Virus record (IMG/VR): IMGVR_UViG_3300045885_000102
Location: 1-23,097 of that record
From: a virus
Length of the DNA stretch: 23,097 bases
Strand: one strand, 5' to 3'
This document shows, one piece after another, positions 4,022 through 21,066 of this stretch. The notes under the pieces are model-generated. The model searched no databases. It had not been told where the DNA came from and saw nothing but the letters and a program-made list of their open reading frames with translations. The position numbers and the translations under genes were made by a program. Position 1 is the stretch's first letter, and each line of letters begins with the position of its first letter.

Positions 4022-4777
4022 ATGCCCGTTACGCTCTTCGCGCGGAACCTGCTCGAGGAGGGCACGGTCACGGCGGCCGCGCTCGCGGAGTATCCCGCCA
4101 CGCGGCTCTACGATCGCGACCGCGGCCAGCAGTGGCAGGCCACGGCCGCGGCGCCCGTGGAGATCGTGCTCGACGCCGGGGCGCCTGTCGCCGCGGCGGG
4201 CCTGGCCATCGCCAACCACAACATCGGCGCCTCGTCGATCATCGTGGCCTCGTCGCCCGACGGCGTCACCTACACGACGGTGACCACGGCCGCCCCGGGC
4301 ACGGGCGCCGTGGCCGTGCTCACGTTCGCCGAGACGACGGCGCGCTACTGGCGCGTGACGCTCCCCGCGGTCGGGACCCTGCAGGCCGGCGAGCTCATGC
4401 TGGGCGTGCCGCTCACGTTCCCGACGCCGGAGCTGCAACCCGACTATCAGGATCGCGTCGTGCCCAACGTGCAGCGCGATCGCTCGCCGGGCGGCTACTC
4501 GTGGACGGTGAAGCGCGGCCCGTCGCGCCGGGAGTTCCGCTTCGGCTGGACCACGCTGGATGCCGCCGCGGTCGCGCGCCTTCAGCAGGCCTACGCGGAG
4601 TCGGACGAAGGCGCGAAGCGCATCGCCTACGTCGACCCCTGGGGCGTGGCCTGGTGGGTCGAGTTCACGGACGACAACGGGCTGCAGGTCCAGCTCGGGC
4701 GCGTCGCGACGGGCGCGCAGCCGACCGCGCCCAACGTCACCCAGGCGGCCACGATCACGTTGCAGGAAGCGCTATGA
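4022..4777 (+). CDS. Distal tail protein with galactose-binding-like N-terminal domain
   Basis: Protein of 251 residues. Residues about 5-125 look like an F5/8-type-C (discoidin, galactose-binding-like) jelly roll: YPATRLYDRDRGQQWQA, then VEIVLDAGAPV, SSIIVASSPDGVTYTTV and ARYWRVTLP follow the usual 'A.ALDG...T.W.......I.IDLG......I......DG..F......A.YVRI' pattern. The remaining part (VKRGPSRREFRFGWTTLDAAAVARLQQ, ending NVTQAATITLQEAL) resembles distal tail proteins that join tube to tip. Its position between the tape measure and the large hub protein supports this. The stop overlaps the hub start (ATGA). Sugar binding is inferred from the fold only. Confidence 0.65.
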   Translation: MPVTLFARNLLEEGTVTAAALAEYPATRLYDRDRGQQWQATAAAPVEIVLDAGAPVAAAGLAIANHNIGASSIIVASSPDGVTYTTVTTAAPGTGAVAVLTFAETTARYWRVTLPAVGTLQAGELMLGVPLTFPTPELQPDYQDRVVPNVQRDRSPGGYSWTVKRGPSRREFRFGWTTLDAAAVARLQQAYAESDEGAKRIAYVDPWGVAWWVEFTDDNGLQVQLGRVATGAQPTAPNVTQAATITLQEAL

Positions 4778-7700
4778 AGGCGCTCACGGCGCCGACGTCG
4801 ATCATCACGCGGCGCGCGTGGACGGTGCCCGCGCTCTTCGCGCAGATCGACTTCACGACGCCGTCAGCCTTCACGCTGCGCATCTCCGATCGCTACCGGA
4901 TCGCCTTCGGGCAGCAGTGGCTACCGCTCGTGGCCGACTGGGGCGACGTCGAGAGCGTGCTGAACACGCTCGACATGGGCGGGCGGCCGGCTACCGCCGA
5001 GTTTGGTCTGAACAATGACGTGCCCGTCGAAGGCGCGGGCAAGCGGCGGATCTCCGACATGATCCGCACCCCGTTCAATCAAGGCGCGGGCGCCTACGAG
5101 TGGGCCTTCGCGAAGGTGACGATCTCGGAGCTGCTCGACGAGCGCCTCGGGTCCGACGACGTGATCCGGCTCGGGGAGTTCTACCTCGAGGATCCCACCG
5201 AGATCGACGACCACGTGCTGCGCGTGCGCATGATCGACGCCACGCTGGCGCTCGAGGACCGCATCCAGCTTACGCGCGTGACGCGCATCAGTTTCCCGCT
5301 CGCCGACCCCGACGCGATCGGCCGCGCGATCCCCGTGCCCTTCGGTGTGCTTACGAACGTGCCGACGCTCAACGTCGTCGCGGGCGCCCTCTCGACGCTC
5401 TCGGCGGCGATCACCACGGTCAGCCCCGGCGTCGGCGGCACGCTCCCGGTGAGCGATACCGCGCTCTTCCCTGCGTCGGGCACGGTGCAGATCGACGACG
5501 AGCAGATCGCTTACTCGTCGAAGACCTCGAGCGGCCTGGTGATCAGTGCGCGGCCGTTTGCGGCGCGGGCCGCCCATTCGCAAGGCGCGACGCTGTGGGA
5601 AGTGCGCAGCGGCGCGCAGGCGTACCGCTACATCGTCGGCGAGAATCGCGGGGCCTACAAGATCGCCGCCGTGACCAACGTGCGCGCGGGCGGCGTACTG
5701 CAGCCCGGCGCCACCGTGAACCTCGACGACACGACGCTGATGCCCGGGCGCTCCTTCGCGGTGATCAACTTCAGCGACCTCCCGGTCATCAGGAAGGACG
5801 TCGTGCTCGACGTGGTCGACACGATCGATGTCGCCGACACCATCGACGTGGCAGACACCATCGACGTCGCGGATACGATCGACGTGGCCGACACGATCGG
5901 CGTCGCCGAGACGATCCGCGTCAACGACACGATCGGCGTCGCCGACGGCATCACGGTCTCGGACAACATCTTCGTGACGTCGCCCTCGCAAACCTCGGTG
6001 GTGCGGCTCGGCACGAACATCCCGCTGCAGATCACCGCGACGCTCGGCGGCGGCGGCGGGCAATTCAGCGCGACGGGCACGATCCTGATGCCCGCCACGC
6101 CGGGCGGCACGATCACCAACGTCAACCGCACGATCACGTATCGCGTGCTCGCGTCGACGATCGCGACGAGCGCCTGGAGCTTCGTGCGCTCGGGCGGCGT
6201 GGTGATCGAGTCGGGCTCGACCTTCCCGGCCGTGGGGCTCCGGCCCACGTTCCAGTACGGCAGCGGCACCGTGTACGGCGCGGAGACGTTCACGATTGCG
6301 GGCACGGGCGCGAGCGGCGGCGGCACGATCACCGTGCAGATCGACGCCTTCTCTGAACAGGTCGAGGCCAACGTCGTCGTCAACAAGGGCGGCAACGCCT
6401 TCCGCGGCGGCGCAGCCTCGAAGGTGGGCGCCGCGACGAAGAGCGGCACGGCCACGAAGACCGGCCTCGCGGACAAAGTCGGCACGGCGGATAAGGTCGG
6501 CCTGGCCGACAAAGTCGGCGCCGCCACGAAGGTCGGCACGGTGACGCTCGTCGGCAACTCGACGGCCGATGTCCTGGTCGGCGACGTCACGTGCGACCTC
6601 GTGGGGCTGCGCGATGACGGCACGGGCACGATCACCGGCACGCCATCCCTGCCGATCCAGAACCCGGCCGACGTCACGAAGACGATCCTGCTCACGTGCT
6701 TCCCGGGCGTGACGCTCGGGCACTTCGGGACGACGTGGGCGGCCACGCGCGCGCAGCTCGCCGGCTTTCAGTGGGCGATGCTCCTCGAGTACCTGCGCTT
6801 CTCGGAGCTGCGCGAACTCGCGGGCGCCCAGGCGCGCGCCGTGCTCTACCTGGAAGCCGGCCGGTGGGAGTTCCGCTTCGTGCCCGACGCCCCGGAGCCC
6901 TCGGTCGTGCTCGACTATGACCGCGACGTGGCCGTGGAGCCCGTCGCGCGCGTGGGCCGCACGCCGCTCGTGGAGCTGAAGACGTCGCTCTGGGTGTACT
7001 CGCACCGCGACTACCGCGTAAGCGGCAGCCCAGAGGAGCAGTACGCGCGGGCCGTCAACGCGAAGGATCTCACCGCGGGCGTGAGCGACGAGATCCAGGA
7101 GACGGTCACGCTGCCCTTCGTGCAGCACGAGGCGACGGCGGACGCGCTCGCCGCGTGGCATCTGTCGCGGCGCAAGCGCCAGCGCCTCACGCTCTCCGTG
7201 ACCGCCTGGTGGAACGTGATCGGGCTCGAGCAGGCCGACTTCGTCGCGATCGACGGGCACCCGATCCTGGCCGCCCATGGCGGCGTCGATCTGGTCTTCC
7301 AAGTCACGCGGCGGCGCTACGCCATCGGCGACGACACGAACGCCGGGCGGATCGCGCTCGATCTCGTGCAGCTCCCCGTGCAACCCACGCCGGCGCGCCT
7401 CCTCACGCCGGAGCCGGGCACCATGCTTCCCCCTGGCACGTCGGTGCCGTTCACGTGGTCGGCGGGTTTCGACGTGACGGCTTACGAGCTGCGCCTCGGG
7501 AGCTCGCCGGGCGCGATGGACTACTACACGAGTGGCGTCACGGGCGCCCTGGGCGCGACGGCGACGCTGCCGGCGTTCACCACGCCGGGCGTGGTGTACG
7601 CCACGCTGCTCTCGCGCTTCTCATCGGGCGAGTGGGTCGAGAACGAGTACACGTATGCGCGTCGCTACACGATCACGGGCACGGGCGACGTGGCGGCGCC

Positions 7701-8070
7701 GCTGGGCCAGCTCGCGGGCGCCGGGCTCGTGGGCGCGAGCGGCACGGGCGGCGTGGTGGCACCGATCGGCGCCCTCTCGGGTACGGGCGTGCTCTTCATC
7801 ACGGGCACGGGCGGTGTCGAGGCGCCCATCGGCGCGATCGACGGCGGCGAGAAGTTCTGGATCGGCGCCGATCCCGACCGCTTCTGGACCGGCGACGATA
7901 CCGACACCTTCTGGGGCCGTGGCCGGCCGCGCGAGCGGGGCGGTGTGGTCGCCCCGCTCAGTGAGCTCGCTGGTGCGGGCACCGTGATCAATCCTGACTT
8001 CTGGGCGGGCGCCGACGCCGACGTGTACTGGTCGGGGCCTGATAGCGGACCATTCTGGGGCGTCGTGTAG
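4774..8070 (+). CDS. Large tail hub / tip protein with internal repeat modules
   Basis: Protein of 1098 residues. The frame is open upstream to 4132, but the ATG at 4774 overlaps the distal tail stop and the upstream stretch is a shadow of that gene. In order: residues 1-345, hub-like (LGEFYLEDPTEIDDHVLRVRM); 349-396, eight acidic hexapeptides (DTIDVA type); about 400-530, beta-rich, Gly/Thr-rich; 547-594, eight basic hexapeptides (xADKVG type); about 600-870, domain like the C-terminal part of siphophage tip proteins (ELAGAQARAVLYLEAGRWEF, TLPFVQHEATADALAAWHL); about 876-965, Ig/FN3-like (PPGTSVPFTWSAGFDVTAYE); 969-1098, GTGGVxAPIG repeats and two FW-rich repeats. It probably forms the baseplate hub/central spike and carries fibre or sugar-binding parts. 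Recognition is by layout rather than a named family. Confidence 0.7.
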   Translation: MKALTAPTSIITRRAWTVPALFAQIDFTTPSAFTLRISDRYRIAFGQQWLPLVADWGDVESVLNTLDMGGRPATAEFGLNNDVPVEGAGKRRISDMIRTPFNQGAGAYEWAFAKVTISELLDERLGSDDVIRLGEFYLEDPTEIDDHVLRVRMIDATLALEDRIQLTRVTRISFPLADPDAIGRAIPVPFGVLTNVPTLNVVAGALSTLSAAITTVSPGVGGTLPVSDTALFPASGTVQIDDEQIAYSSKTSSGLVISARPFAARAAHSQGATLWEVRSGAQAYRYIVGENRGAYKIAAVTNVRAGGVLQPGATVNLDDTTLMPGRSFAVINFSDLPVIRKDVVLDVVDTIDVADTIDVADTIDVADTIDVADTIGVAETIRVNDTIGVADGITVSDNIFVTSPSQTSVVRLGTNIPLQITATLGGGGGQFSATGTILMPATPGGTITNVNRTITYRVLASTIATSAWSFVRSGGVVIESGSTFPAVGLRPTFQYGSGTVYGAETFTIAGTGASGGGTITVQIDAFSEQVEANVVVNKGGNAFRGGAASKVGAATKSGTATKTGLADKVGTADKVGLADKVGAATKVGTVTLVGNSTADVLVGDVTCDLVGLRDDGTGTITGTPSLPIQNPADVTKTILLTCFPGVTLGHFGTTWAATRAQLAGFQWAMLLEYLRFSELRELAGAQARAVLYLEAGRWEFRFVPDAPEPSVVLDYDRDVAVEPVARVGRTPLVELKTSLWVYSHRDYRVSGSPEEQYARAVNAKDLTAGVSDEIQETVTLPFVQHEATADALAAWHLSRRKRQRLTLSVTAWWNVIGLEQADFVAIDGHPILAAHGGVDLVFQVTRRRYAIGDDTNAGRIALDLVQLPVQPTPARLLTPEPGTMLPPGTSVPFTWSAGFDVTAYELRLGSSPGAMDYYTSGVTGALGATATLPAFTTPGVVYATLLSRFSSGEWVENEYTYARRYTITGTGDVAAPLGQLAGAGLVGASGTGGVVAPIGALSGTGVLFITGTGGVEAPIGAIDGGEKFWIGADPDRFWTGDDTDTFWGRGRPRERGGVVAPLSELAGAGTVINPDFWAGADADVYWSGPDSGPFWGVV
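5818..5979 (+). repeat. 18-bp tandem coding repeat, acidic hexapeptide DTIDVA
   Basis: Eight consecutive hexads begin at 5818: four DTIDVA, then DTIGVA, ETIRVN, DTIGVA and DGITVS, trailing into DNIFV. Synonymous codons vary between copies (ACG/ACC, GTC/GTG), so the protein pattern is under selection and this is not a very recent DNA slippage array. Confidence 0.9.
6412..6555 (+). repeat. 18-bp tandem coding repeat, basic hexapeptide xADKVG
   Basis: Eight hexads at residues 547-594: AASKVG, AATKSG, TATKTG, LADKVG, TADKVG, LADKVG, AATKVG, TVTLVG. The period of 6 and the copy number equal those of the acidic array about 430 bases upstream, but the charged position is Lys. Confidence 0.9.
7855..8067 (+). 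repeat. Two Trp-rich repeats at the C-terminus of the tail hub protein
   Basis: Residues from 1028 (FWIGADPDRFWTGDD then TDTFWG) and from 1076 (FWAGADADVYWSGPD then SGPFWG) align without gaps over 21 positions, each with three aromatic pairs 9 residues apart. They flank a copy of the GGVVAPLSELAGAG motif, which itself recurs upstream as GGVVAPIGALSGTG and GGVEAPIGAIDGG. Confidence 0.85.
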
Positions 8071-11974: not shown

Positions 11975-12843
11975 CGGACGCCCTCGCGACGACGGCGGCG
12001 CCGCCGACCATGACGGCCGACCAGGCCGCGCTCATCAAGCGCACCATCGCGAAGGGCGCAACGGACGACGAGCTGCGCCTCTTCCTGCAGCAATGCGCCC
12101 GCACGCGCCTCGACCCGTTCGCGCGCCAGATCTTCGCCGTGAAGCGATGGGACACCGATGAAGGCCGCCAGGTGATGTCGACGCAGGTCAGCATCGACGG
12201 ATTGCGGCTCGTCGCCGAGCGCACGGGCGAGTACGAGGGCCAGACGAAGCCCGAATGGTGCGGGCGCGACGGCAAGTGGGTTGACGTCTGGCTCAGCGAC
12301 GATCTCCCGGCGGCGTCCCGCGTGGGCGTACACCGCAAGGGCTTCCGGGAGCCCGCGTGGGGCGTGGCGCGGTTCGATTCCTACGCGCAGCGCAAGAAGG
12401 ACGGCAAGCTCACGCGCATGTGGGATCGCATGGCCGACGTCATGATCGCGAAGTGCGCCGAGGCGCTCGCGCTGCGCAAGGCGTTCCCACACGAGCTGTC
12501 GGGCCTCTACACCTCCGACGAGATGGGCCAGAGCGAGGAGCATCCCGCGCCGTCGCGCGAGCGCCCCGAGCACGTGGACGCGGACGGCGTGGTGGAGGAG
12601 CCGCCCGATCGCGAGTTCCACGTGCCGGCCGTCCTCACGCTGATCGAGCGCCTGCGCGTGCAGCTCAAGCCCACGCCCGAGGGCTGGCGCAAGGTCTGCC
12701 TCGCCTTCTGCGGCTTCGAGAACCTCGCCGACGAGCAGGTGGAGCCGTCCAAGCTCGACGAGCTCCTGACGGTGCTGCAGAAGGTGGCCGCGAAGGACAA
12801 GGACGCGCTGGCGACCATGCGCGCGATCGTCGAGGGGCCGTGA
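11971..12843 (+). CDS. bet: Phage recombination protein Bet (RecT/Red-beta family ssDNA annealing)
   Basis: Protein of 290 residues. Strong family motifs: [20 protein letters not shown] (21-40), [16 protein letters not shown] (46-61), [19 protein letters not shown] (70-88), [14 protein letters not shown] (95-108) and [20 protein letters not shown] (158-177) ending GLYTSDEM. Red-beta-type proteins anneal complementary single strands during phage recombination and replication. The core ends near residue 185, followed by an acidic linker and an extra helical C-terminal domain ([18 protein letters not shown] onward) that may bind SSB or partners. No adjacent exonuclease of the usual type is found. 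It is preceded by GGGAGG and coupled to the upstream micro-ORF. Confidence 0.92.
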
Positions 12844-16243: not shown

Positions 16244-16435
16244 ATGCCCACGTCGACCGCCCACGCCCGGATCCTGGAATCCTTCACCGACCTTCAACCC
16301 ACCGCAGCCCAGCGCGTACGCCGGCTGGAGCGCGAGATCGATACCCTGCTGCGACGGCTCGATCGCCTGGCCCGCCGTCTCGAGCAGGAGCGCGACACGC
16401 TCGATCACTCCGACGCATGGAAAGGAGCGTCGTGA
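16244..16435 (+). CDS. Small coiled-coil protein
   Basis: Protein of 63 residues. AAQRVRRLEREIDTLLRRLD then RLARRLEQERDTLD is an uninterrupted heptad-like, strongly charged helix, so dimerisation through a coiled coil is likely. The stop overlaps the initiator's ATG (TGATG) and its 3' end carries the initiator ribosome site AAGGAG. No family is recognised. Confidence 0.5.
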   Translation: MPTSTAHARILESFTDLQPTAAQRVRRLEREIDTLLRRLDRLARRLEQERDTLDHSDAWKGAS

Positions 16436-17106
16436 TGCCATGGTCTCGATTCGAGCCCGGCTTCTCTCGTCACCCCAAGCGCCTCAAGGTCGGCCCCATC
16501 GCCTCGTGGCTCTGGGTCGCCAGCGTCGACCACTGCACCGAGTTCCGCACCGATGGCTTCCTCGACGCCGCCTCCATCGTGACGCTGTGCCCGACCATCA
16601 AGCCGGCCGAGCTCAAGCGCCACGTCGAGGCCCTGATCGCCATCCGGTCGTGGGAACCCGTCGAAGGCGGCTATCAGGTCCACGGCTATCTCGAGCACAA
16701 CCAGACCGCCAGGCAGGTCGAGGCCGATCGCCAGGCCTCCAAGGACAGATTCCTCAAGTGGATGAGCCAGCGGCGCAGCAACGCCGTTGCTAACGGCGTT
16801 GTGCAGCAGGAATCCAACGGCGCTGCCAACGCCGTTGCAGCGCAGTTGCAACGCTGCTCTCCTTCAGTCAGTCAGTCAGGTACTAACTACTTAGAACCTC
16901 CTGTATCTCCTACGCGATCTACGACCAAACGCGCGCGGCGCGTTCAAACCGGCGCGCCGGGGATTGCTCACGCAATCGATTCGGACTCGAACAGGAGCCC
17001 AGGAGCCCAGGAAACCGAGCTCGCAGTGCTCGCGGCGGCGATGGGAATCACGCTCGAGGAAGCTCGAGCGCGCCAGCTCGAAGCGCGCGAACGAGGCCGC
17101 GCGTGA
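16435..17106 (+). CDS. Replication initiator / replisome organiser-like protein
   Basis: Protein of 223 residues. The ATG at 16435 is chosen over upstream ATG 16417 because AAGGAG precedes it and MPWSRFEPGFSRHPKRLKVG is the usual start of this family. The domain at 1-100 (WLWVASVDHCTEFRTDGFLD, HVEALIAIRSWEPVEGGYQV then HGYLEHN) is the winged-helix-like N-terminus of phage replisome organiser/DnaD-like proteins ('W.....DDGF..HPK......A.GLW........TDGF', then 'WE....GY..HDWL..N'). A low-complexity linker coded by repeats follows (NAVANGVVQQESNGAANAV), then a C-terminal helix (ETELAVLAAAMGITLEEARA). It would bind the origin and recruit host helicase; the repeats in its own gene suggest a lambda-O-like arrangement. 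Confidence 0.65.
   Translation: MPWSRFEPGFSRHPKRLKVGPIASWLWVASVDHCTEFRTDGFLDAASIVTLCPTIKPAELKRHVEALIAIRSWEPVEGGYQVHGYLEHNQTARQVEADRQASKDRFLKWMSQRRSNAVANGVVQQESNGAANAVAAQLQRCSPSVSQSGTNYLEPPVSPTRSTTKRARRVQTGAPGIAHAIDSDSNRSPGAQETELAVLAAAMGITLEEARARQLEARERGRA
16778..16880. other. Candidate phage replication origin (iterons inside the initiator gene)
   Basis: GCAACGCCGTTGC (16778-16790) is a near-perfect palindrome. The 9-mer AACGCCGTT or its reverse complement recurs at 16780, 16792, 16816 (one mismatch) and 16828, spacings of 12, 24 and 12 bases; GCAACGCTGC at 16848 is a further degenerate copy. Four TCAG units follow (16864-16879), then a less GC-rich stretch to about 16920. Iterons followed by easily melted DNA within the initiator gene is the lambda ori layout. 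Confidence 0.5.
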
Positions 17107-17488: not shown

Positions 17489-17601
17489 GTGACCCCGGGG
17501 CCGTTGAAATCGCTAGAGAGTCCCAAGGCGAGACCCCCGCCGCAGCCAAACCGCGCGTTACAGTCGCGAAAATACTTACGACAAAAACGAAAAAACGATG
17601 A
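17485..17601 (+). CDS. 38-residue Lys-rich micro-ORF between HNH and large terminase
   Basis: ATG overlaps the HNH stop and TGA overlaps the terminase ATG. It encodes MSDPGAVEIARESQGETPAA then AKPRVTVAKILTTKTKKR. The last 60 bases are strikingly A-rich for this genome, with codons AAA, ATA and CTT otherwise rare here. A small terminase would be expected at this place, but this peptide is too short. The DNA may instead be a cis site (cos-like) that happens to be open, or the remnant of a lost gene. Confidence 0.45.
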   Translation: MSDPGAVEIARESQGETPAAAKPRVTVAKILTTKTKKR

Positions 17602-19443: not shown

Positions 19444-19707
19444 ATGGAAACGACACTGCTCTCCGTCGCGCTGCTCGGCCTCATCCCGGCGGCCATCGCG
19501 CATAGCAAGGGCCAGAACTTCGCCATGTGGTGGATCTACGGCCTGCTGATCTGGCCCGTCGCGATCATCCACTCGCTCGTGATCAAGCCCGGCGCGCCCC
19601 AGGCCGTCCTCGCCTCGCACGCCAACCGATCCGCCGCGCCGGGCGCCTACGGTACGGTCCCGCCGGTGAGCCGCGACGAGCTGCGCCACTGGTTCGGCCC
19701 GCGGTGA
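19444..19707 (+). CDS. Small two-span membrane protein
   Basis: Protein of 87 residues. Hydrophobic helices lie at about 5-20 (LLSVALLGLIPAAIA) and 28-47 (MWWIYGLLIWPVAIIHSLVI), joined by a short HSKGQNF turn; the cytosolic-like tail is Pro/Ala-rich. The 'KG..F..WW.YG.L...VA..H.L' pattern recurs in small phage and bacterial membrane proteins of unknown role. Within a packaging block it is out of functional context; superinfection exclusion or lysis control are possibilities without direct support. The stop lies in the first 10-bp repeat of the following array. Confidence 0.55.
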   Translation: METTLLSVALLGLIPAAIAHSKGQNFAMWWIYGLLIWPVAIIHSLVIKPGAPQAVLASHANRSAAPGAYGTVPPVSRDELRHWFGPR

Positions 19708-19750
19708 CATCAAGTGACATGTAGTGACATTTAGAGACATCTAGAGACAT
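19701..19750. repeat. Five 10-bp direct repeats (GTGACAT-type iterons)
   Basis: Exact 10-base period, one DNA turn: GCGGTGACAT, CAAGTGACAT, GTAGTGACAT, TTAGAGACAT, CTAGAGACAT. The core GWGACAT is invariant except for T/A. The array lies mostly outside coding sequence, so the period is not explained by protein repeats. The exact helical phasing suggests a protein-binding site, such as cosB-like terminase sites or an operator array. Confidence 0.9.
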
Positions 19751-19766
19751 CGCCCCGGGTAGTCCC

Positions 19767-19800
19767 TTGCGCGTTTCGCCGCGGCATGCGAAACGCGCAA
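19767..19800. repeat. 13-bp perfect inverted repeat over the portal start
   Basis: TTGCGCGTTTCGC (19767-19779), 8-base loop CGCGGCAT, GCGAAACGCGCAA (19788-19800). The ATG of the portal frame begins in the loop (19786). It lies 17 bases after the repeat array. No T-tract follows, so it is not a standard terminator. It could be an RNA hairpin controlling portal translation or a DNA cruciform/packaging site. Confidence 0.85.
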
Positions 19801-21066
19801 GCAGTGACGCGCCTACAGCGACTCGCCGACGGCTTCAAAGCGGTGTTCCGCCGCGTGGCCGGCCTCGATCTCCGCACGGCGAACCTCGCGAACTGGACGC
19901 TGCCCGGCCTCGCCTTCGCCCCGCTCCCGCCCTCGGCTCAGACCTACACGCAGCTCTACCGCACGCAGCCCGAAGTGCGGACGGTGATCGATTTCCTGGC
20001 GCGGAACATCGCGCAGATCGGCCTGCACGTGTTCCGGCGGATCAGCGACACGGACCGCGTGCGCATCGCCGACCATCCGCTCGCGCTCCTGCTGAAGTCG
20101 CCGAATCCGGCGACGGCGCGCTATCGCCTGTTCGAGTCGACGATGATCGACCTCGGGATTCACTACAACGCCTACTGGCTCAAGATGCGCGAGCGCAACC
20201 GCCTGCAGCTCGTGCGCGTCCCGCCCGAGCAGATCTACCCCGTCGGGCATCTGCTCCCGACGGGCTATCGCTGGACCTGGCCCGACGGGCAGCGCTGGGA
20301 GCTGCCGCCCTCGGAGATCGTGCACTTCCGCGGCTATGACCCGGACAACCCGCTCATGGGCCTGTCGCCGCTCGAGACGCTCCGGCGCCTGCTCGCCGAG
20401 GAGCGCGCGAGCGTCGAGTATCGCGGCGCCTTCTGGCGCAACGCCGCGCGCCTGGCCGGCGTGATCCTGCGCCCGCAGACGGCGCCATCGTGGACGCCAG
20501 AGAAGCGCGAGCAGTTCAAGGACGACTGGGCCGCCTTCTATTCCGGGGCCGCGAACGCCGGCAAGTCGCCCGTGCTCGAGGATGGCATGAGCTACCAGCC
20601 CATGACGGCGACGGCGCGCGATTCGCAGCTCGTCGAGTCGCGCAAGCTCACGCGCGAGGAGGTCGCGGCCGCCTACCACGTGCCGCTGCCCATGGTCGGG
20701 ATCCTCGATCACGCGACGTTCAGCAACATCCGCGAGCAGCACAAGCAGCTCTACCAGGATTGTCTCGGGCCGTGGCTGGTCATGCTCGAGGAGGACATCG
20801 AGCTCCAGCTCCTGCCCGAGTTCACCGATAGCGAGGACGTCTACACGGAGTTCAACATCTCCGAGAAGCTGAAAGGCTCCTTCGAGGAGCAGACGGCCTC
20901 GCTCCGCGTCGGCACGGGCGCGCCCTTCCTCACGCGCAACGAAGCGCGCGCGCGCCTGAACCTGCCGCGCATCCCGGAAGCCGAGTTCGACAAGCCGGTC
21001 ACGAACCTGAACACGCTGGAGGGCGATCAGCAGCGCGTGACCGAGGCCGAGCAGGAGGCGCTATGA
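19786..21066 (+). CDS. Portal protein (HK97 family)
   Basis: Protein of 426 residues. Typical HK97-type features: YRTQPEVRTVIDFLARNIAQ then IGLHVFRR, an internal HPLALLLKSPNP, LGIHYNAYWLKMRERN, PPEQIYPV, PPSEIVHFRGYDPDNPLMGL then SPLETLR, and the C-terminal stem VAAAYHVPLPMVGILDHATF. It forms the dodecameric DNA channel at the head vertex. The start is uncertain: ATG 19786 lies within the hairpin and lacks a clear ribosome site; GTG 19804 in frame lies after it, also without one. The stop overlaps the protease ATG (ATGA). Confidence 0.93.
   Translation: MRNAQAVTRLQRLADGFKAVFRRVAGLDLRTANLANWTLPGLAFAPLPPSAQTYTQLYRTQPEVRTVIDFLARNIAQIGLHVFRRISDTDRVRIADHPLALLLKSPNPATARYRLFESTMIDLGIHYNAYWLKMRERNRLQLVRVPPEQIYPVGHLLPTGYRWTWPDGQRWELPPSEIVHFRGYDPDNPLMGLSPLETLRRLLAEERASVEYRGAFWRNAARLAGVILRPQTAPSWTPEKREQFKDDWAAFYSGAANAGKSPVLEDGMSYQPMTATARDSQLVESRKLTREEVAAAYHVPLPMVGILDHATFSNIREQHKQLYQDCLGPWLVMLEEDIELQLLPEFTDSEDVYTEFNISEKLKGSFEEQTASLRVGTGAPFLTRNEARARLNLPRIPEAEFDKPVTNLNTLEGDQQRVTEAEQEAL

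Follow-up and report, generated by a model that had tools for sequence, protein, structure and literature searches.

The stretch of DNA analyzed here (the window, 23,097 nucleotides) is a virus record, IMG/VR IMGVR_UViG_3300045885_000102. Its genes run in the order rep, HNH, terL, a gene for a 52-aa winged-HTH (wHTH) protein, a small hydrophobic ORF, an array of direct repeats, portal, protease, and capsid (Table 1). The record is a nearly closed circle that is about 210 bases short by comparison with a near relative, G002 (L205, L206), and in the circular window genome the break falls between the capsid and head-tail genes. G002 comprises 25,420 bases and is a complete circle with a 127-base terminal overlap; it was classed as linear, yet it closes with this overlap. 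The two genomes match through the structural genes and differ in the integrase-bearing early region, and their integrases have no detectable similarity to each other. Neither positions 17489-17597 nor the window as a whole holds a recognizable small terminase gene; in relatives, such a gene lies between HNH and terL. Two sets of 18-bp tandem repeats (5807-5946 and 6408-6537) lie within a long tail ORF (4132-8070), and Rfam and tRNA scans found nothing.

Table 1. Features of the terL-portal junction in the window and arrays of further lineages
Feature	Position	Strand	Remarks
wHTH protein, 52 aa	19225..19383	+	BldC/Xis/Nu1-DBD-like; proposed array binder
Hydrophobic ORF, 87 aa	19444..19707	+	between wHTH gene and array
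Operator-like array	19704..19750	+	five direct repeats GWGACATNNA, period 10
Perfect inverted repeat	19766..19801	.	14-bp arms, 8-bp spacer; overlaps candidate promoter
Candidate -35-like element TTGCGC	19767..19772	+	37 nt before GTG 19804
Portal gene, corrected start GTG 19804	19804..21066	+	Phage_portal 3.4e-86; start from G002 alignment
L080 array			wHTH between terL and portal; AGCGACAGTA x2, AGCGGCATTC
L218 array			wHTH between terL and portal; AGGTCGCATT x3, AGGTCACATC
L223 array			wHTH between terL and portal; GTCCCAT-type x4
L225 array			wHTH between terL and portal; GGACAT-type x4
L043 and L013 arrays			more distant; wHTH between terL and portal; 9-bp arrays

The hydrophobic ORF matches phrog_8436 (2e-14), a family of unknown function. 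It is 70% identical in G002 and missing from more distant lineages; a few enterobacterial phages carry relatives with 50 to 60% identity. Its TGA stop codon (19705-19707) is overlapped by the first copy of the array. The copies (GTGACAT at 19704, 19714, and 19724; GAGACAT at 19734 and 19744) are spaced by 10, 10, 10, and 10 bp, which confirms the five GWGACAT 10-mers in exact 10-bp register described in the first-pass annotation. On both strands of the 23-kb window, GWGACAT occurs at these five places only. Although this count is not unusual (3.6 expected), the tandem register is. Tandem Repeats Finder reported one period-10 array in the terL-portal region (19704-19751, score 61), and in 300 dinucleotide-shuffled versions of the terL-portal interval its tandem score was never reached. 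Elsewhere in the window, neither the repeat nor the inverted-repeat arm recurs above chance, as it would in a regulon or a repressor operator. In the window and G002 alike, the word does not occur outside the array, which points to one target site.

The wHTH gene is preceded by a strong Shine-Dalgarno sequence (AGGAGG, 9 nt upstream). An AlphaFold model of its product has the elements of a wHTH (mean pLDDT of 82.7), and, as is typical of the BldC type, the protein is predicted to be small and to consist of a MerR-like wHTH only. Its PHROG matches were to an excisionase family (PHROG 66, 9e-4) and to TerS (0.0055), while in a profile search of PDB sequences the best match was BldC (0.01) and the third best a TerS domain (0.046). 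Foldseek also ranked DNA-bound BldC first, with weak E-values. VIA-align gave Z scores of 6.5 for Pukovnik Xis, 5.7 and 5.4 for the Nu1-type TerS domains 7lw0 and 7lwr, and 5.3 for BldC, where differences under 1 count as ties. These fold matches group the modeled protein with other small wHTH proteins but do not tell a regulator from an excisionase or TerS. No relative was confirmed in the bacterial genomes scanned, and the cultured phages searched yielded marginal matches only, with no close relative. Several comparisons were set aside. Actinophages Kuleana, Santhid, and Moosehead also have small genes in the terL-portal interval, but these encode another type of protein ("RNA binding" or hypothetical), and AlpA of P. 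aeruginosa, considered as an analogue, is a different and larger protein. The protein encoded at 12840, which had been named as another possible binder, was rejected: it is missing from G002 and therefore cannot be the conserved binder.

Recurrence of the array with the wHTH gene

In G002, the wHTH protein is kept at 88% and the array is kept with three clear copies. Further wHTH-bearing lineages were identified with wHTH and portal as queries (Table 1). Across eight wHTH lineages, the array has 3 to 5 direct-repeat copies at 9 to 10 bp, as expected of a BldC-type site. The sequence of the repeat differs from lineage to lineage (GTGACAT, GCGACAG, GTCGCAT, GTCCCAT, and CGGACAT); despite this drift, the period, copy number, direction, and place of the array are constant.

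We counted co-occurrence in 58 nonredundant terL-portal intervals, calling a wHTH at an HMM E-value below 1e-3. Arrays with a period of 9 to 11 were present in 8 of 8 intervals with a wHTH and in 3 of 50 without one (Fisher 9e-8, a value that overstates certainty and serves as a guide only, because the intervals share ancestry and neighboring genes are not independent). When the window and G002 were left out, arrays were present in 6 of 6 wHTH intervals compared with 3 of 50 without wHTH. Thus, the array is conserved and tied to the neighboring wHTH gene.

Some intervals have additional features. In the two lineages with 9-bp arrays (L043 and L013), another gene separates the array from portal. 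Small proteins are encoded between array and portal in L043 (5666-5893), L013 (2431-2658), and L033 (2704-2919); by eye they resemble the "RNA binding protein" between terL and portal in Kuleana and Santhid, and those tested matched no Pfam family. In L043 (5562-5605), a nine-T run lies between the wHTH stop codon and the array, which is followed by a perfect hairpin of 8 bp. L033 is an exception among the intervals without a wHTH. A different small protein takes the place of the wHTH there (2429-2650), ribbon-helix-helix-like by eye and with no Pfam match; downstream of its gene come a distinct 10-bp array and a TTGACA.

The tandem word of the window (GTGACAT, 10-bp spacing) also occurs in other settings, and a scan of viral contigs returned at least 120 stretches. 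The matches listed fall in or at rep genes and activator genes, and none of them lies beside a gene related to the wHTH gene or to the window portal gene. In at least seven contigs (six of one cluster, plus L106), activator-type genes carry the word at their 3' end, and all four of the genes tested matched phrog_36 and/or phrog_248. In L097, L105, L112, L149, L161, L172, and L106, the last codons of these genes are made up of tandem ATGTCAC at 10 bp. By analogy, this context would parallel the use of an operator beside a late regulator. The likeness to the phrog_36/phrog_248 (DUF1492-type) late activators extends to gene order, with the regulator gene located upstream of HNH and terL in L097, L112, and L149. 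However, the regulator is unrelated, the repeats have the opposite orientation, and they lie upstream of the terminase genes rather than of portal.

The gap between array and portal start

The inverted repeat has arms of 14 nt (19766-19779 and 19788-19801) that are 100% complementary around an 8-nt spacer, and it begins 15 bases past the last GAGACAT. The first-pass annotation had correctly placed it beside the array but gave it 13-bp arms and a 17-base gap. It is the sole perfect inverted repeat in the window (arms of at least 11, loop of 3 to 12), and arms of at least 14 arose in 1 of 30 Markov-simulated genomes. It does not have the GC-rich stem and following T tract of an intrinsic terminator, in line with the earlier statement that a terminator does not explain it, and it matched no Rfam family. 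Among viral contigs, it was found only in a near-identical copy of the window phage. Alignment with related phages had been proposed as a check on both repeats: from the array to the portal start, where G002 and the window differ in length by 2 bases, the array is kept but the inverted repeat is not. A loxP-like reading of its geometry was dropped because of this lack of conservation. Inverted repeats are somewhat enriched in the array-portal gaps of relatives (combined p of 0.003 without the window); they are short, and the position and sequence of the stem vary. Judged by these comparisons, the inverted repeat is real, so far specific to the window phage, and outside the conserved core. Overlapping the candidate promoter, it may be a second, lineage-specific control site.

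The portal gene had been annotated as starting at an ATG in the loop of the inverted repeat (19786), which is probably a miscall. Homology between the window and G002 begins at a GTG (19804 in the window, 964 in L004), and the G002 portal has no in-frame start upstream of it, so the portal probably starts at GTG 19804. With this start, the inverted repeat sits just 5' of the start codon, and the spacing from array to start agrees with that of four other lineages.

Measured from the last repeat core of the array, the portal start codon lies 53, 52, 51, 53, and 55 bp away in five of the lineages, compared with 61 bp in G002. For five of six distances to fall within 5 bp has a chance of about 1e-4 under a uniform 20-120 model, and a TTG at -36 to -38 of the portal start in four of six lineages has a shuffle p of about 1e-4 at any offset; both patterns were noticed after the fact, and the portal start codons are predictions. 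L004 and L080 are without this TTG, and the helical phase of the array-to-start spacing was not significant by itself (0.11). Across lineages, Shine-Dalgarno sequences are good at wHTH starts and absent or weak at portal starts. From its position, we infer that the TTG fits a -35 element of a promoter whose transcript starts near the portal start codon. A sigma-70 pair with both hexamers near consensus and 16 to 18 bp apart was not found at the scan thresholds, and the promoter is therefore given as a candidate.

Candidate functions of the array

We consider it probable that the array is a BldC/Xis-type operator that is bound by the 19225 protein and controls a promoter for the portal and capsid genes. 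The protein, encoded about 320 bp upstream, would bind the array as a head-to-tail row in the manner of BldC on direct repeats, each 10-bp repeat, and hence each helical turn, taking one wHTH monomer. When bound, it would act on a promoter located past the array and ahead of the portal start codon, so that the genes for portal, protease, capsid, and tail would be expressed apart from terL. The transcript would be nearly leaderless, and the protein could act by activation or by repression. A direct-repeat array with a 9- to 10-bp period beside a wHTH gene is what the binding mode of BldC and RdfS predicts. An operator controlling capsid-gene expression, and the 19225 protein as its possible binder, had both been proposed in the first-pass annotation; the comparative evidence (co-occurrence of wHTH and array, near-constant distance to portal) favors the two proposals, with binding as the predicted step.

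The same annotation had drawn a parallel to a cos/pac-like module with a symmetric cosN. As a packaging signal, the array would be a cosB- or pac-type site for the wHTH protein, acting as a miniature TerS DBD, and the inverted repeat would be the cut site. Resemblance to Nu1-type TerS DBDs is seen in the structural matches given above and in the L218 protein (PHROG 57, 4.4e-5). Moreover, terL and HNH adjoin the wHTH gene, the array site is unique in the window and G002 genomes, and neither the window nor the complete G002 circle yielded a recognizable TerS. We nonetheless regard a packaging signal as unlikely, because relatives with both wHTH and array carry an additional, TerS-like gene immediately before terL (P27-type in L080, 2.9e-12; L223, 6.6e-4; L225, 2.8e-4; L218, 0.065). 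Symmetry of the kind expected at a cut site beside the repeats is absent in G002 and differs in position elsewhere, leaving the would-be cosN unconserved. A packaging site would not be expected to keep a fixed spacing from the portal start codon, contig ends do not cluster at the array, and the TerS of HK97 reads a single 15-bp site beside cos, with no iteron array (PMC11331095). We would also give rather low odds to a dual use, in which a filament-forming, BldC-like protein on a 9- to 10-bp array marks the boundary of terL and portal in a family of small environmental phages, and the site serves both late transcription and packaging. The array would then be, for example, the recognition half of a cos site, with TerS reduced to a DBD in the window and G002.

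Control might instead act on RNA, with the hairpin hiding the portal start or attenuating transcription and the array being incidental or part of a protein-bound RNA. The predicted fold is stable (-31.8 kcal/mol, z of -2.7), and the enrichment of inverted repeats in the gaps of relatives would agree with it. Yet the stems of relatives vary, the G002 fold is no better than shuffles (z of -0.7), and the hairpin comes without a terminator tail, making RNA-level control quite improbable; in particular, the suggestion of an attenuating hairpin over the portal ATG is weakened by the probable GTG start and by nonconservation. It is very unlikely that the repeats are iterons of a replication origin, bound by the initiator encoded at 16417, because the rep genes of the window and G002 share different internal repeats of their own, CAACGCCGTTG, which are the likelier origin and argue against the second origin proposed earlier. 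The array also follows the wHTH gene and not rep, and its word drifts with lineage. The slim chance that we leave to an origin comes from the rep-gene context of tandem GTGACAT, which is common within phage rep genes (at least 48 contigs, one ORF cluster) and is contained in the L129 rep, a member of the window's own rep family (phrog_2447). The CAACGCCGTTG repeats and palindromes inside the rep genes are found at 16779-16850 in the window and at L206:10699-10737. Finally, in an excision or integration site, the wHTH would be the excisionase, the array its site, and the inverted repeat the recombinase core. The weak excisionase matches (PHROG 66 and Pukovnik Xis) would suit this, as would the 14-8-14 geometry of the inverted repeat, which resembles that of tyrosine-recombinase core sites. 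But G002, with an unrelated integrase, keeps the protein and the array and loses the inverted repeat, so that the protein is not inherited together with an integrase as an excisionase would be; with the integrase gene 4.4 kb away, we consider such a site extremely unlikely. Near the G002 integrase gene (L206:8700-9150), recurring CPG/SGF-type translations suggest TGTCCGG-type DNA repeats, which are possibly the arm sites of the G002 attP.

Relation to known systems

As a putative operator with its own regulator, the array is best compared with the targets of BldC. In Streptomyces, BldC binds direct repeats head to tail, in variable number and one helical turn apart (PMC5859096). The likeness lies in a small MerR-like wHTH without other domains and in direct repeats of variable number with about one turn per predicted monomer. 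However, BldC repeats are imperfect and AT-rich (AATTxxxxC) and BldC is a chromosomal pleiotropic regulator, whereas the window has one site in a phage genome, where binding is a prediction. The Xis-like RdfS forms head-to-tail oligomers with 10 bp per monomer (PMC11963761). Directionality factors of the Xis/RdfS type, such as Pukovnik Xis (4j2n), have the fold that is predicted for the 19225 protein, but their site of action is attP, where they work with a partner integrase; here, protein and array outlast an integrase swap. Nu1-type TerS DBDs have in common with it the wHTH fold and the place beside terL, and lambda cosB likewise has repeated binding sites. In contrast, the 52-aa protein has no TerL-binding or oligomerization domain, its site is downstream of terL, and relatives have another TerS.

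A further comparison is with the Caulobacter GTA promoter (GafY/GafZ), where the GafZ element is a palindrome between -35 and -10 (PMC11150451). There, too, an upstream activator site and a palindrome in the promoter spacer precede a capsid-type cluster. The proteins are others, however, and there is no 10-bp array; in the window, the promoter is a candidate and the inverted repeat is unconserved. By analogy, it is conceivable that a second regulator acts at the gap palindrome.

A full-text literature search found no report of a wHTH-array module, which does not by itself prove that none exists. The pair of wHTH and repeats recurs in several distantly related uncultured phages, and the analysis also corrected the predicted portal start codon. 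If the proposed control is true, it would pair a particular protein with a particular DNA site in an unstudied phage group. A word that drifts while spacing, copy range, and portal distance stay fixed would form a natural series on how BldC/Xis-type proteins read direct repeats. It further suggests that the portal and capsid genes of these phages may have their own switch, apart from terL.
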